Shown here piece after piece: positions 22,345-57,802 of a stretch of DNA of 64,000 nt. The number at the start of each line of letters is the position of its first letter. The stretch's first letter is position 1. This DNA is from Heliorestis convoluta (GTDB taxonomy: Bacteria > Bacillota > Desulfitobacteriia > Heliobacteriales > Heliobacteriaceae). The translations under genes were made by a program, and so were the position numbers. The stretch is from positions 1,717,501 to 1,781,500 of the forward strand of contig NZ_CP045875.1 of NCBI RefSeq assembly GCF_009649955.1. Reading direction: 5' to 3'. The notes beneath the pieces are model-generated. The model was not told the origin of the DNA and did not search any database. It saw nothing but the letters and a program-made list of their open reading frames with translations.

Positions 22345-22405
22345 CGGCTCGAAGCACCGTAGTAACACCGAGGTACGGTTCTGCGTTATTTATTAAACCT
22401 TGTGC

Positions 22406-22529
22406 TGGGGCAGGCGTTATTCATTCCTTCCGAAGAGACTCATGCCACGCCATAAGCGGCAGCAAAAGCTGCCTGAAAGGCTGAGGTCTGAGGTCCTCTC
22501 CCTCTAGGAGTGAATCAAAGGCCTGCCCT
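22406..22529. repeat. Solo, divergent copy of structured repeat module A
   Basis: This hairpin lies in the 390-base gene-free stretch between the coat gene and rarA. It has an outer stem GGGCAGGC / GCCTGCCC continuing as ATTCATTCC / GGAGTGAAT, the conserved internal loop (CATGCCAC on the 5' side, TGAGGTCTGA on the 3' side), and an apical GGCAGC-AAAA-GCTGCC hairpin. It shares the core with module A at 24450, 30498 and 57659, but its outer stem has different, still paired bases. Module B and terminal repeats are not found beside it. The rest of the gap holds the inverted repeat at 22655. Confidence 0.8.
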
Positions 22530-22654
22530 AGCTTTCGTCTTGCTTCTTATGACAAGTGTGAAGTGAATAAAGACATTGTACTGGTAACAAAAGAAACAGA
22601 GACAGCAATCGTTATATCACTATCTTCATCAGGTTCTTCCTCGTGAGAGTAGAC

Positions 22655-22734: not shown

Positions 22735-24057
22735 ATGGATCTCTTTTCGTATCAACGAGAACAGAAAAAAGGAACAGAAGGTCCACTGGCTTATCGAATG
22801 CGCCCTCAGAATCTCGATGAAGTGGTTGGGCAGTCCCACTTAATAGGACCCGGCACCGCCTTACGACGAATGATTGAAGAAGATAACTTACATTCTCTCA
22901 TCCTTTATGGCCCCCCAGGAACGGGAAAAACGACTTTGGCCCAATTAATTGCCCGCAAAACGGAAAGTTATTTTGTAACCCTTTCTGCCGTTAGCAGCAA
23001 TTCAGCAGAAATCAAAAAAGCCATTCATAGCGCAGCAGAGCGTCTAGGCTATTACCAACAACGCACTATCTTGTTTATTGACGAAATCCATCGCTTTAAC
23101 AAGGCCCAGCAAGATTTGCTCCTCCCAGCCATAGAAGACGGTACAATCTTGTTAATTGGAGCCACTACAGAAAATCCACTATATGAAGTAAACGCTGCTT
23201 TAATCTCACGGTTGCGCGTCTATATGCTTTATCCTTTACAAGAAAATGAAGTACGATCTTTGCTGGAGAGAAGCCTCACCGATCCAGAACGAGGCTTAGG
23301 CCTTTCTGTGGCAACATTAACGGAAGAAGCTTTTGATCTCATTATCAGAGCTTCTAAAGGCGACGGCAGAGCGGCCTTGACTCTATTAGACATGATCATA
23401 ACAGTTCACGATCCTTCTGAAAAAGTAACAGCCCAGCAAGTCATGGAAGTAACGGGCCAGATGGCTACTTATTATGACAAAAAAGGCAGTGGCCACTATG
23501 ATACGATTTCTGCTTTCATTAAAAGCATACGCGGTTCAGACCCTGATGCCGCTTTGTTCTGGCTTGCTGTTATGCTAGAAGCGGGCGAAGATCCACTTTA
23601 TATCGCTCGCAGACTTATCATTCACGCTGCAGAAGACATTGGGCTTGCTGACCCAATGGCTCTTGTATTAGCCCAGTCGACAGCCGAAGCCGTCAAAATG
23701 GTAGGCTTGCCAGAAGGACAAATTCCACTGTCACAAGCAACCATTTATTTAGCGACAGCTCCCAAAAGCAATAGCGCCAAAAATGCAATCTATCAGGCCA
23801 GAGCCGCTGTACGAGAAAGCAAAGGCTTTCAAGTGCCTCCACACTTGGCTGACAGCTCTCATTCTCTTGCATCAAAAGTACTTCAAAAAGGGGAAGGCTA
23901 TCAGTACCCCCACGATTTTGGCGGCTATGTAAAACAAAGCTACCTGCCTCCCGAAATGGAAGGCAAATGCTTTTATCAGCCTACAGAACAAGGACAAGAA
24001 CATAGGATTAAAGAGTGGTTGCAAAAGCTGCAAAGCTATTTGCAACCGAATAGGTAG
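22735..24057 (+). CDS. rarA: Replication-associated recombination protein A (RarA/MgsA)
   Basis: RarA is an AAA+ ATPase related to clamp-loader subunits that acts at stalled replication forks. It has Walker [18 protein letters not shown] near residue 58, Walker [17 protein letters not shown], sensor segments [18 protein letters not shown], and the C-terminal tetramerisation domain with [25 protein letters not shown] and [18 protein letters not shown]. At 440 residues the length is normal. The ATG at 22735 follows a GAGAAAGGAAAAG stretch. It stands alone between two repeat copies. Confidence 0.95.
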
Positions 24058-24156
24058 CCTCTAGCATATATGTTCACAGGCTGTTACAGCATTGACCTAA
24101 AGCTACCTACCTGCTACCTGCTAAACATAAACAGTCATGCTCGACGAGCAGAACCA

Positions 24157-24602
24157 TTTGATGAAAAGCAACTTTTTCTGATTGCCGCCGTTGGGGTTAC
24201 TGCTTGCAGGGGCCTGGGCATCACGCTTTCCTCCGCTCTGGACTGGTCCCACGCTGTTACCGCCAGCAAGCTGGCGACAGCTGAGGTCCCAAGTCCCGCT
24301 CCGGAAAGCGTGATGCCCAGGCCCAGAAAGTTTTTGCTGATTGTTACTCCCATTGGCATTGCTTTGCGTAACTTTTTGCTATGTATACGCAACTGTCTAT
24401 TGCATTTGCAATAGGCCAAAACTCAGTCACAACCAGCAAAATGTACCTGGGGCAGGCGTTATGACTTCCTGGAGAGAGAGGACTTCAGACCTCAGCCTTT
24501 CACGCAGCTTGCTGCCGCTTATGGCGTGGGTAGGACCTTCGGAAGGAAATCATAACGCCTGACCCACCACAAAACTTTGCCAACCACTATGCGATTTTCC
24601 TT
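24157..24602 (+). mobile_element. Composite structured element, copy 1 (MITE/BIME-like)
   Basis: This element fills most of the 609-base gap between rarA and the BCCT gene. From left to right it has a terminal segment beginning TTTGATGAAAAGC, the tag GTTGGGGTTACT, module B (24211-24323, with a perfect 21-bp outer stem starting GGCCTGGGCATC), a linker with the palindrome CTATTGCATTTGCAATAG, module A (24450-24565), and a tail ending near GCGATTTTCC. The two modules carry the same core in opposite orientation. Edges are set by alignment to copies 2 and 3. The short ORF within it is not considered real. No transposase is present. The stretch 24058-24156 holds only a small TGCTCG/CGAGCA hairpin. 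Confidence 0.78.
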
Positions 24603-24666: not shown

Positions 24667-26196
24667 TTATTTTTCTTGTTGCCGAAAAAGCACTTCTAAC
24701 TGCTTGTTGCGCATACGATCTGAGCGAAAGCGTTCTTTATCTTCTTCTTCTAAAGACTTAATAATAGACATACACATAAAGACCATAATTACAGCAAAAG
24801 GCAAAGCGGCTACAATTGATGCGGTCTGTAAGCCCTGTAACCCTCCACTTAACAAAAGCACAGCCGCACTGGCTGATTGTAAAAAGCCCCAAGCTAACTT
24901 TACTCGTACGGATGGATTGAGCCTTCCTTCCGAAGAAAGCATCCCTAAGACAAAAGTAGCCGAATCAGCAGAAGTAATAAAAAAAGTGGTAATCAACAAA
25001 GTTGCTAGTATGGATAATAACAAACCAACAGGAAATTGCTCTAGCGTAATAAAAAGCGCTGACGATACATCGGCTTGTACAGCTTCTGCAATTCCACGAC
25101 CTTCAAACATCTCGAAGTGCAAAGCACTACCACCAAAGACAGAGAACCAGACAAAGCTAAAAAGACTTGGCACAAGCAAAACACCAAGAACGAATTCTCG
25201 AATTGTTCTTCCCTTAGAAACACGAGCAATAAAAGAACCGACAAAAGGTGCCCAAGCAATCCACCAAGCCCAGTAGAAAAGAGTCCAGTTGGCAATCCAT
25301 TCTCCTTTCGTAAAAGGAGTAAGGCGTAAGCTCATCTGAATAAAGTTTTGTAGATAGCCTCCCAAAGTTAAGGTGAAAAGATCGAAGATAAAAGAAGTAG
25401 GACCACTAAAAAGGGCAAAAAAGAGCAGACCCAGAGCAAGCTTTAGATTGATATTGCTTAAAGTCTTAATCCCCCGATTCAGGCCTGTACTCGCTGAAAT
25501 CATATAAAGCACCGTAACAACAGCAATAATGATCAATTGCGTTGTAATCACGTTCGGTATGCCCGTAAGATAGGACAGGCCGCCGTTGATTTGCAAGGCG
25601 CCCAATCCCAAAGAAGTAGCCACTCCAAAAACAGTTGCAATAATTGCCAAAGTATCGATGGCTTTACCAATAGGACCGTTCACTCTTTCTCCCAAAAGAG
25701 GATAAAAAGTATGGCTGATCAAGCCTTGATATCCTTTGCGAAAGTTAAAATAAGCCAAAGCCAGCGCAATTACTGTATAAATACCCCAGGGGTGAAGCCC
25801 CCAATGAAAGAAAGAATAACGCATGGCCATACGAGCAGCTTCTACACTTTCTTCAGCAACATCAAAAGGAGGCGCTGCATAGTGAAACATCGGTTCCGCC
25901 ACGCCCCAAAAAACGAGGCCAATGCCCATACCAGCACTAAAAAGCATGGCATACCAAGTAGGCTTTCCGTACTCAGGCTCATCATCGTCAGAGCCTAGCT
26001 TAATAGAACCATGCTTGCTAAAGGCCAGATAAAGAGAAAAAAGGAGAAAGCCAAAAGTGGCCAATAGATAAAACCAACCAAATTTCTCAATTGTAAAACC
26101 GAGCAGTCCTTCGGCCGTTGCCGTTAGCCCAGCAGGATGAATGGCACCCCAGAGTACAAAAAGAAAAATACAGGCCATGGAGATATAACGAACCAT
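24667..26196 (-). CDS. BCCT family transporter (betaine/carnitine/choline type)
   Basis: The protein has about 12 membrane segments and the BCCT pattern: SAGMGIGLVFWGVAEPMFHY, YSFFHWGLHPWGIYTVIALA, and YWAWWIAWAPFVGSFIARVSKGRTIREF, with FFITSADSATFVLGML later. These match Na+- or H+-coupled carriers of glycine betaine, choline or carnitine. The substrate cannot be fixed from the sequence, but osmoprotectant uptake is most likely. At 509 residues the length is normal, with a short N terminus that lacks the long acidic tail of some BetP proteins. ATG 26196 has GGAGGG at 26203-26208. It is a single gene. Confidence 0.92.
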   Translation of the reverse strand: MVRYISMACIFLFVLWGAIHPAGLTATAEGLLGFTIEKFGWFYLLATFGFLLFSLYLAFSKHGSIKLGSDDDEPEYGKPTWYAMLFSAGMGIGLVFWGVAEPMFHYAAPPFDVAEESVEAARMAMRYSFFHWGLHPWGIYTVIALALAYFNFRKGYQGLISHTFYPLLGERVNGPIGKAIDTLAIIATVFGVATSLGLGALQINGGLSYLTGIPNVITTQLIIIAVVTVLYMISASTGLNRGIKTLSNINLKLALGLLFFALFSGPTSFIFDLFTLTLGGYLQNFIQMSLRLTPFTKGEWIANWTLFYWAWWIAWAPFVGSFIARVSKGRTIREFVLGVLLVPSLFSFVWFSVFGGSALHFEMFEGRGIAEAVQADVSSALFITLEQFPVGLLLSILATLLITTFFITSADSATFVLGMLSSEGRLNPSVRVKLAWGFLQSASAAVLLLSGGLQGLQTASIVAALPFAVIMVFMCMSIIKSLEEEDKERFRSDRMRNKQLEVLFRQQEK

Positions 26197-30467: not shown

Positions 30468-30901
30468 AACACGAAAGAAAATAGCTACTTTGTGGTGGGG
30501 TCAGGCGTTATGATTTCCTTCCGAACGGACTCATCCCACGCCATGAGCGGCAGCAAGCTGCCGATGGCTGAGGTCTGAAGTCCTCTCTCCAGGAAGTCAT
30601 AACGCCTGACCCAGGTACATTTTGCTGGTTGTGACTGCGTTTTGGCCTATTGCAAATGCAATAGACAGTTGTGTAAACATAGCAGGAAGTTACGCCAAGC
30701 AGTGTCAACGGGAGTAACAATTAATAAAAAGCTCTCTGGGACTGGGCATCACGCTTTCCGCAGCGGGACTTGGGACCTCAGCGCATCAGTAGCTTGCTGG
30801 CGGTAACAGCGTGGGACCAGTCCAGAGCGGAGGAAAGCGTGATGACCAGTCCCATGCAAGAAGTAACACCAACATAATCAAGTAAAGTTGATTTTCATCT
30901 T
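30468..30901 (-). mobile_element. Composite structured element, copy 2 (inverted relative to copies 1 and 3)
   Basis: This copy fills most of the 689-base gap between comEA and ylmC. In plus-strand order it shows an end with GAAAGAAAATAGCTAC, module A (30498-30612), the linker with CTATTGCAAATGCAATAG, module B (about 30736-30853), the tag AGTAACACCAAC (complement of the GTTGGGGTTACT tag), and an end with GATTTTCATC. The module B outer stem has GGACTGG/CCAGTCC where copy 1 has GGCCTGG/CCAGGCC, a compensated change. Its module B apical hairpin is damaged (GCAAGCTACTG). The rest of the gap shows no gene. Confidence 0.78.
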
Positions 30902-50395: not shown

Positions 50396-50424
50396 TAAAG
50401 CTTATAATCTACTATTCTAAAAGC

Positions 50425-50677
50425 AAAGAATGGGACAGATAGCATGGAATTGTCTTGACAGCGAACCTGGATTTGGTGGAAGCCAGGACTTGACGACCAT
50501 GGCTATATCCCCCAGGAGCTGCGTCAGTGAAGCAGAGTAATTGACGACGGAAGTGGCCGTTATCCGCGCTTAAGAGGCTGTGAGCTACCTGTGTTAAAGG
50601 TGGATTACAGTGAATTAGGGTGGTACCGCGAGCTATTTCGCCCCTTGCATATGTAAGGGGCTTTTTATTTTATATTG
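50425..50677 (+). promoter_or_regulatory. T-box leader for ileS
   Basis: A tRNA-sensing T-box riboswitch precedes ileS. The T-box sequence AGGGTGGTACCGCG is at 50617-50630. The terminator stem GCCCCTT / AAGGGGC (50640-50661) is followed by CTTTTTATTT. A long stem I region lies at about 50440-50520, and an ATC isoleucine triplet occurs at 50517-50519, a possible specifier. Uncharged tRNA-Ile should favour antitermination. Confidence 0.93.
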
Positions 50678-57337: not shown

Positions 57338-57802
57338 CTTTGATGAAAATAGCTACCAAAAGGAATGTCCCTGTGCCATCCCTGCTATGTCCGATTACGT
57401 TGGGGTTACTTCATAGAGGGGCCAGGTCATCACGCTTTCCTCCGCTCTGGACTGGTCCCACGCTGTTACCGCCAGCAAGCTGGCGACAGCTGAGGTCCCA
57501 AGTCCCGCTGCGGAAAGCGTGATGCCCAGGCCCAGAAGGTTTTTGCTGATTGTTACTTCCGTTGGAATAGCTTGGCGAAAATTTCTTCTATCCGCAACTA
57601 CCTATTGTATTTGCAATGCAATAGGCCAAAACTCAGTCACAACCAGCAAGATGTATCTGGGTCAGGCGTTATGACTTCCTGGAGAGAGGACTTCAGACCT
57701 CAGCCATCGGCAGCTTGCTGCCGCTCATGGCGTGGGATGAGTCCGTTCGGAAGGAAGTCATAACGCCTGACCCCACCACAGAGTAGCTATTTTCGTTGAA
57801 AG
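57338..57802 (+). mobile_element. Composite structured element, copy 3, with best-preserved terminal inverted repeats
   Basis: This copy occupies most of the 689-base gap between the YteA and SASP genes. Its ends are CTTTGATGAAAATAGCTAC (57338-57356) and the inverted GTAGCTATTTTCGTTGAAAG (57783-57802). Inside are the tag GTTGGGGTTACT, module B (57417-57533), the linker with a CTATTG..CAATAG palindrome, and module A (57659-57774; outer stem starting GGGTCAGGCGTTATGACTTC pairs with its complement). No target-site duplication is obvious and no transposase is present. The remaining gap carries only the SASP promoter region. Confidence 0.82.

Follow-up and report, generated by a model that had tools for sequence, protein, structure and literature searches.

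A lineage-restricted family of mobile hairpin repeats with a conserved bulged core in heliobacteria

Heliobacteria harbour a new, lineage-restricted family of hairpin repeats that is unusual in the conservation of a bulged core. The hairpin is mobile, its family is confined to part of the Heliobacteriaceae, and covariation above the phylogenetic background supports selection on a folded nucleic acid. The best explanation, and probably the right one, is a non-autonomous mobile hairpin of about 115 nt, the bulged core of which would be recognised in folded form (as RNA or as ssDNA) by a putative factor. The family was studied starting from a window (the whole stretch of 64,000 nucleotides that was analysed) of Heliorestis convoluta HH, the genome of which is a single contig of 3,218,981 bp.

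The repeat unit that was examined most closely (Table 1) is flanked by mgsA (22735-24057, with an MgsA_C domain) and the convergent gene of a BCCT transporter (24667-26196). The longest alignments with other copies start at 24128 or 24136 and end at 24573 or 24599, and conservation drops beyond these limits. The 22-nt arms of module A are 100% complementary, and the module folds with a minimum free energy of -82 kcal/mol (z = -9.5), which none of 200 shuffled sequences equalled. Module B is its inverted homologue and folds on the minus strand with z = -4.8; its outer arms (24448-24470 and 24544-24566) are 91% complementary.

Table 1. Hairpin modules and related features of the window (positions are those of the window)
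Feature	Position	Strand	Remarks
Composite dispersed repeat unit (module A, spacer, inverted module B)	24128..24600	+	boundaries approximate
Hairpin module A, intact	24210..24324	+	outer arms 24210-24231 / 24303-24324
Conserved core of module A	24240..24296	+	57 nt
Core of A, internal loop	24247-24252; 24282-24288	+	TCCCAC; TGAGGTC
Core of A, inner stem	24253-24257/24277-24281	+	GCTGT/ACAGC
Core of A, further stems	24292-24296 (AGTCC)	+	GGACT/AGTCC; CGCCAG/CTGGCG
Inter-module spacer	24331..24439	+	per-column conservation below that of the hairpins
Hairpin module B, degenerate copy	24448..24566	-	core damaged, outer arms largely intact
Module B, intact, second A/B unit (opposite orientation)	30490..30621	+	GCCAT/ATGGC, CGGCAG/CTGCCG
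Module A of second unit, A' variant	30732..30858	-	broken apical stem (AAGCTACTGATGCGCTGAGG)
Module A, intact, third unit	57417..57537	+	
Module B, intact, third unit	57651..57780	-	carries GCCAT/ATGGC and CGGCAGC/GCTGCCG pairs
Solitary diverged B-like hairpin between Coat_F gene and mgsA	22400..22531	+	81% identity to B; fold

An earlier note on this DNA had described both modules as hairpins of one shared fold with compensated stem changes. For module A the description fits exactly, as GGACT/AGTCC, TCCCAC/TGAGGTC, GCTGT/ACAGC and CGCCAGC/GCTGGCG are all present. Both modules indeed fold and are homologous, but the neighbouring B copy, which reads GGTCCTACCCACGCCATAAGCGGCAGCAAGCTGCGTGAAAGGCTGAGGTCTGAAGTCC, has GGTCC in place of GGACT, ACCCAC in place of TCCCAC and AAAGGC in place of ATGGC. 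The pairs GCCAT/ATGGC and CGGCAGC/GCTGCCG that had been quoted are therefore missing in this copy, but they are real in the intact B modules of the second and third units and in the family consensus. Conservation of the loop holds for the internal loop, but the apical loop varies, and AGCAAGCT is partly stem. The two modules by themselves are insufficient to show selection on the fold; the wider family suffices.

In the genome of H. convoluta, the strict core motif GGACTNNTCCCACGC...GCTGAGGTCNNAAGTCC has 136 matches (68 per strand), whereas a reversed control has none; this census is a strict pattern count over the genome, in which at least 100 individual places were listed. At least about 40 near-identical copies of module A are among the matches listed, and its 57-nt core is identical in 38 of the fetched copies. 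A and B are usually paired as an inverted unit with an alignable length of about 440 bp, and their distance is nearly constant at about 240 bp among the matches listed. An autonomous version with a transposase between A and B was considered and rejected, as no longer A-B interval was noticed among those matches. When units were found via one module, per-column conservation was highest in the other module, lower in the spacer and lowest in the flanks. All 30 units examined are intergenic (11 between convergent, 15 between co-directional and 4 between divergent gene pairs). Many units are flanked on both sides by a further short repeat (AACCAGTCATGCCCGGTCGGGCACAACCAAAGATGAAAAT), which contains a small hairpin and possibly forms a separate repeat family (examples are the flanks of L011, L020 and L029).

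The copies are not uniform. The distal outer arms of A carry mismatches in many copies, so that pairing at the far ends can be dispensed with, and A' variants with a disrupted apical stem exist in several copies; as this subfamily is multi-copy despite its broken stem, and as the distal arms tolerate mismatches, not all of the structure is needed. One chimaeric copy (L096) has its outer part from B and its inner part from A, with both sides of one stem segment exchanged together.

Selection on a folded nucleic acid, which the earlier note had suspected, is supported by covariation across the wider family. In an alignment of 20 distinct cores from four species, 92.5% of the cells are paired, 9 of the 20 pairs show double-sided changes, and one stem pair shows all four Watson-Crick types. 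The covariation score of 0.332 exceeds those of all shuffles and of every slid register (at most 0.096), and RNAalifold independently arrived at a nearly identical fold with ten compensated pairs. The covariation test with R-scape that had been proposed was run as an R-scape-style null, in which parsimony-inferred substitutions are redistributed over the tree and the phylogeny is thereby preserved. Six stem pairs (15-42, 16-41, 24-36, 26-34, 27-33 and 28-32) reached E < 0.05 for the tested set, and the top five scores among all 1711 column pairs are every one structural. Also the outer arms covary, within the rRNA-trailer copies of Heliobacterium. The fold itself thus probably matters.

Paired changes can arise also if a template switch inside the hairpin rewrites one arm from the other, in which case no selection for the fold would be needed, and the earlier note had named such self-correction of palindromes as what could refute its claim. 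Arms of quite different sequence are each near-perfectly complementary, and the joint swap of both sides of one stem segment in the chimaera L096 would fit as well. Self-correction should, however, erase mismatches, but the internal loop UCCCAC/UGAGGUC is mismatched in 20 of the 20 cores, none having become complementary, and some mismatches of the outer arms persist across many copies. The mean entropy is 0.10 bits at the internal-loop columns versus 0.51 at the paired columns, a conservation that is partly ascertained since the copies were collected by the core motif or the covariance model. As no part of the core varies less than the mismatched loop, pure self-correction is not the explanation, and a decisive role of it appears rather improbable; it may still add to how fast the stems turn over.

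A covariance model built from the core was used to search members of the family Heliobacteriaceae and the remainder of the class. In H. acidaminivorans it yielded 13 convincing copies (besides one weak reverse-strand match to a palindromic copy), in Heliobacterium chlorum and in H. mobile 5 each, and in the five further members of the family that were searched and the rest of the class none. When 84,980 species were scanned with a strict pattern, by design without the own genome, matches likewise came from these three species and from no other. Phages, plasmids and viral contigs gave zero matches to the hairpin, and a viral, phage or plasmid origin was rejected for this reason.

The 13 hairpins of H. 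acidaminivorans are single and intergenic, 10 of them between co-directional genes. Their outer stems are unlike those of A and B, yet self-complementary in intact copies, and several copies are degraded on one side. One copy is adjoined by an OLE RNA gene (L088:1820-2434). In the two Heliobacterium species, 9 of the 10 copies lie directly 3' of the 23S rRNA end in constant orientation, and the tenth has kept the downstream trailer and has a different upstream sequence. In H. chlorum (L079:1000-1700, reverse strand), a CDS lies directly upstream of a hairpin at the expected position of the 23S end, and its product appears by eye to resemble an IS21 IstB-type ATPase. Since the Heliobacterium copies follow 23S, a divergent 5S rRNA was considered for them and rejected, the hairpin being unbranched and canonical 5S genes being found elsewhere in these genomes. 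The remaining rRNA operons of the Heliobacterium genomes, which are the majority, have short trailers without the hairpin. A different insertion, bearing a GGGGGTCAGACCCC hairpin, is present in 5 of the 9 23S trailers of H. acidaminivorans (L194 and L197-L200), so that rRNA trailers appear to be favoured places for hairpin insertions in this family.

That the hairpin is mobile follows from occupied and empty sites. In a syntenic block of 20 kb shared by the two Heliorestis species, 3 of the 4 H. acidaminivorans hairpins are missing in H. convoluta, the glyA-upp spacer, for instance, measuring 62 bp at the empty and 279 bp at the occupied site, and an A/B unit at 900 kb in H. convoluta is without counterpart in H. 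acidaminivorans. Insertion and loss thus occur on the time scale that separates these species. The one site of the four that is occupied in both could be an old conserved copy. Similarly, paralogous rRNA trailers exist with and without the hairpin (e.g. L171 versus L174). In H. acidaminivorans, mgsA is followed by the next gene with no A/B unit and no BCCT gene in between; the transporter gene may have come in with a rearrangement mediated by the repeat.

At the insertion sites, where the flanks of empty and filled sites are too far diverged, no clear target-site duplication could be defined, nor could a constant terminus; a possible short duplication (TTTCC) was seen at one rRNA trailer. Constant terminal inverted repeats were not found, the outer arms varying between species and also among the copies of H. 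acidaminivorans. Neither a mobilising gene nor a parent element was detected in a search for Y1 transposases as the parent. H. chlorum and H. mobile lack the Y1 (IS200/IS605-type) transposase PF01797, and none of the Y1 loci found in the family adjoins a hairpin, which is why a Y1 transposase was rejected as the mobiliser.

As copies lie between genes or in rRNA trailers and hence are often transcribed, the hairpin might alternatively serve its host as a cis-acting RNA that directs processing or stabilises nearby RNA, be it in the maturation of the 23S trailer in Heliobacterium or at mRNA ends in Heliorestis. Judging from their position, the rRNA-trailer copies must be transcribed, and in 8 of 10 the transcribed strand forms a more stable fold than the antisense strand. 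On the transcribed strand their stems have 12 distinct G-U versus 6 distinct A-C pairs, numbers that are small and come from pairs picked with RNA energies; in H. acidaminivorans G-U does not clearly exceed A-C. In the Heliobacterium species, however, most rRNA operons do without the hairpin, and none of the 23S trailers read in H. convoluta has one. The hairpin is found in both orientations relative to flanking genes, the core is present in both orientations within every A/B unit, and positions are mostly unshared between species. A function of this kind is therefore unlikely to account for the family.

Even less can be said for bidirectional intrinsic transcription terminators that were amplified between genes. 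The stems are rich in G+C and very stable, in several copies a run of T lies a few bases at most from one end, and 11 of 30 units are between convergent genes. The rRNA-trailer copies, however, lack an adjacent T run, some of them lie upstream of co-directional tRNA genes, and the flanking genes are co-directional at the 15 units and 10 congener copies mentioned above, in either orientation. A terminator scan finds nothing at module A and just a short 5-bp stem at the end of B, and termination has no need of an invariant internal loop. On the grounds of orientation and missing T runs, a terminator role was rejected as very improbable.

The modules have no match at the gathering score in Rfam 15, and a relaxed threshold gave weak matches far below gathering scores, so that a described Rfam RNA family was ruled out at both thresholds. 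The sole gathering-level match within the window is a T-box leader at 50417-50648 (+). In the paper on the H. convoluta genome (PMC7143216), a term search revealed no mention of repeats of this kind.

The closest comparisons are Correia/NEMIS, ERIC, YPAL and other MITE-like stem-loop repeats, the transcripts of some of which are cut by RNase III (reviewed in PMC2229807, PMC10969869). Like these, the heliobacterial repeats are 100-200 bp long, non-coding, intergenic, multi-copy and lineage-restricted, with long stem-loop transcripts. Unlike in those families, the terminal arms are variable and the inner bulged core is fixed, TA ends and target duplication are not established, and in two species there are insertions in 23S rRNA trailers. 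As is expected of bacterial MITEs, the elements are short, non-coding, multi-copy and mainly intergenic, and have both empty and filled sites, but since their terminal inverted repeats are not constant and a parent transposase was not found, they are not filed as MITEs in the strict sense. The stem-loop sequence families from the survey of 40 genomes by Cozzuto et al. 2008 (PMC2267715) are likewise repeated intergenic sequences with a common predicted fold; the heliobacterial case differs in that a phylogenetic null served to test the covariation and that the copies were followed through more than one genus. REP/REPIN elements, which have RAYT (Y1) transposases (PMC3116915), are also palindromic, intergenic and non-autonomous, with modules in inverted pairs, but the heliobacterial modules measure about 115 nt versus about 20 nt and the Y1 transposase is missing in 2 of the 4 hosts, by which test a REPIN/RAYT system was ruled out.

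Single-stranded DNA hairpins with extrahelical bases are formed by the ends of IS200/IS605 elements and by the attC sites of integrons. The likeness lies in a hairpin with conserved unpaired bases and a stem that is otherwise free in sequence but complementary, whereas no conserved cleavage motif or recombinase was found for the heliobacterial hairpin, and its constant part is near the apex and not at the ends.

The preferred reading, a mobile hairpin recognised by its bulged core, can be put together as follows. In H. convoluta, two diverged members of the family, A and B, were brought together as an inverted pair at a distance of about 240 bp and co-amplified to dozens of intergenic copies; H. 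acidaminivorans and the rRNA trailers of the two Heliobacterium species have single hairpins. It is the folded form that is kept, with compensated substitutions in the stems and a fixed bulged loop UCCCAC/UGAGGUC. The copies, their species range, the insertion polymorphism and the covariation are shown by the analysis; beyond these, the loop would be where a trans-acting factor binds in order to copy or move the hairpin. Where it is transcribed between genes or within pre-rRNA, the hairpin would be a tolerated passenger, to be cut out like other dsRNA-like stems by an enzyme of the RNase III class. A more far-reaching version, in which the element is replicated through recognition of the folded hairpin, possibly as RNA and thus as a bacterial counterpart of SINEs, with a bulged core as the ligand, free complementary arms and a niche in rRNA trailers, is speculative and has little probability on present grounds.

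Descriptions of palindromic repeats in bacteria usually start from the ends, but here the ends vary and the constant part is an internal loop within covarying stems. With more than 130 copies in one genome and relatives in three species, the family is a natural data set that lets the recognised structure be deduced, and a specific hairpin-binding partner is predicted to exist in heliobacteria. As the rRNA operons of a single cell differ in whether they have the hairpin, an effect on pre-rRNA can moreover be tested in a clean internal comparison.

Some minor observations concern the rRNA genes of H. convoluta. There are just two canonical 5S rRNA genes, in tandem at 781576-782074 and about 3 kb upstream (5') of one 23S 3' end, whereas the 23S 3' end is matched at 11 places, and a relative (G005) likewise has fewer 5S than 23S matches. 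A 5' fragment of 16S rRNA abuts a truncated A/B unit (L141:8085-8245), and one partial 16S gene is reported in the genome paper (PMC7143216).
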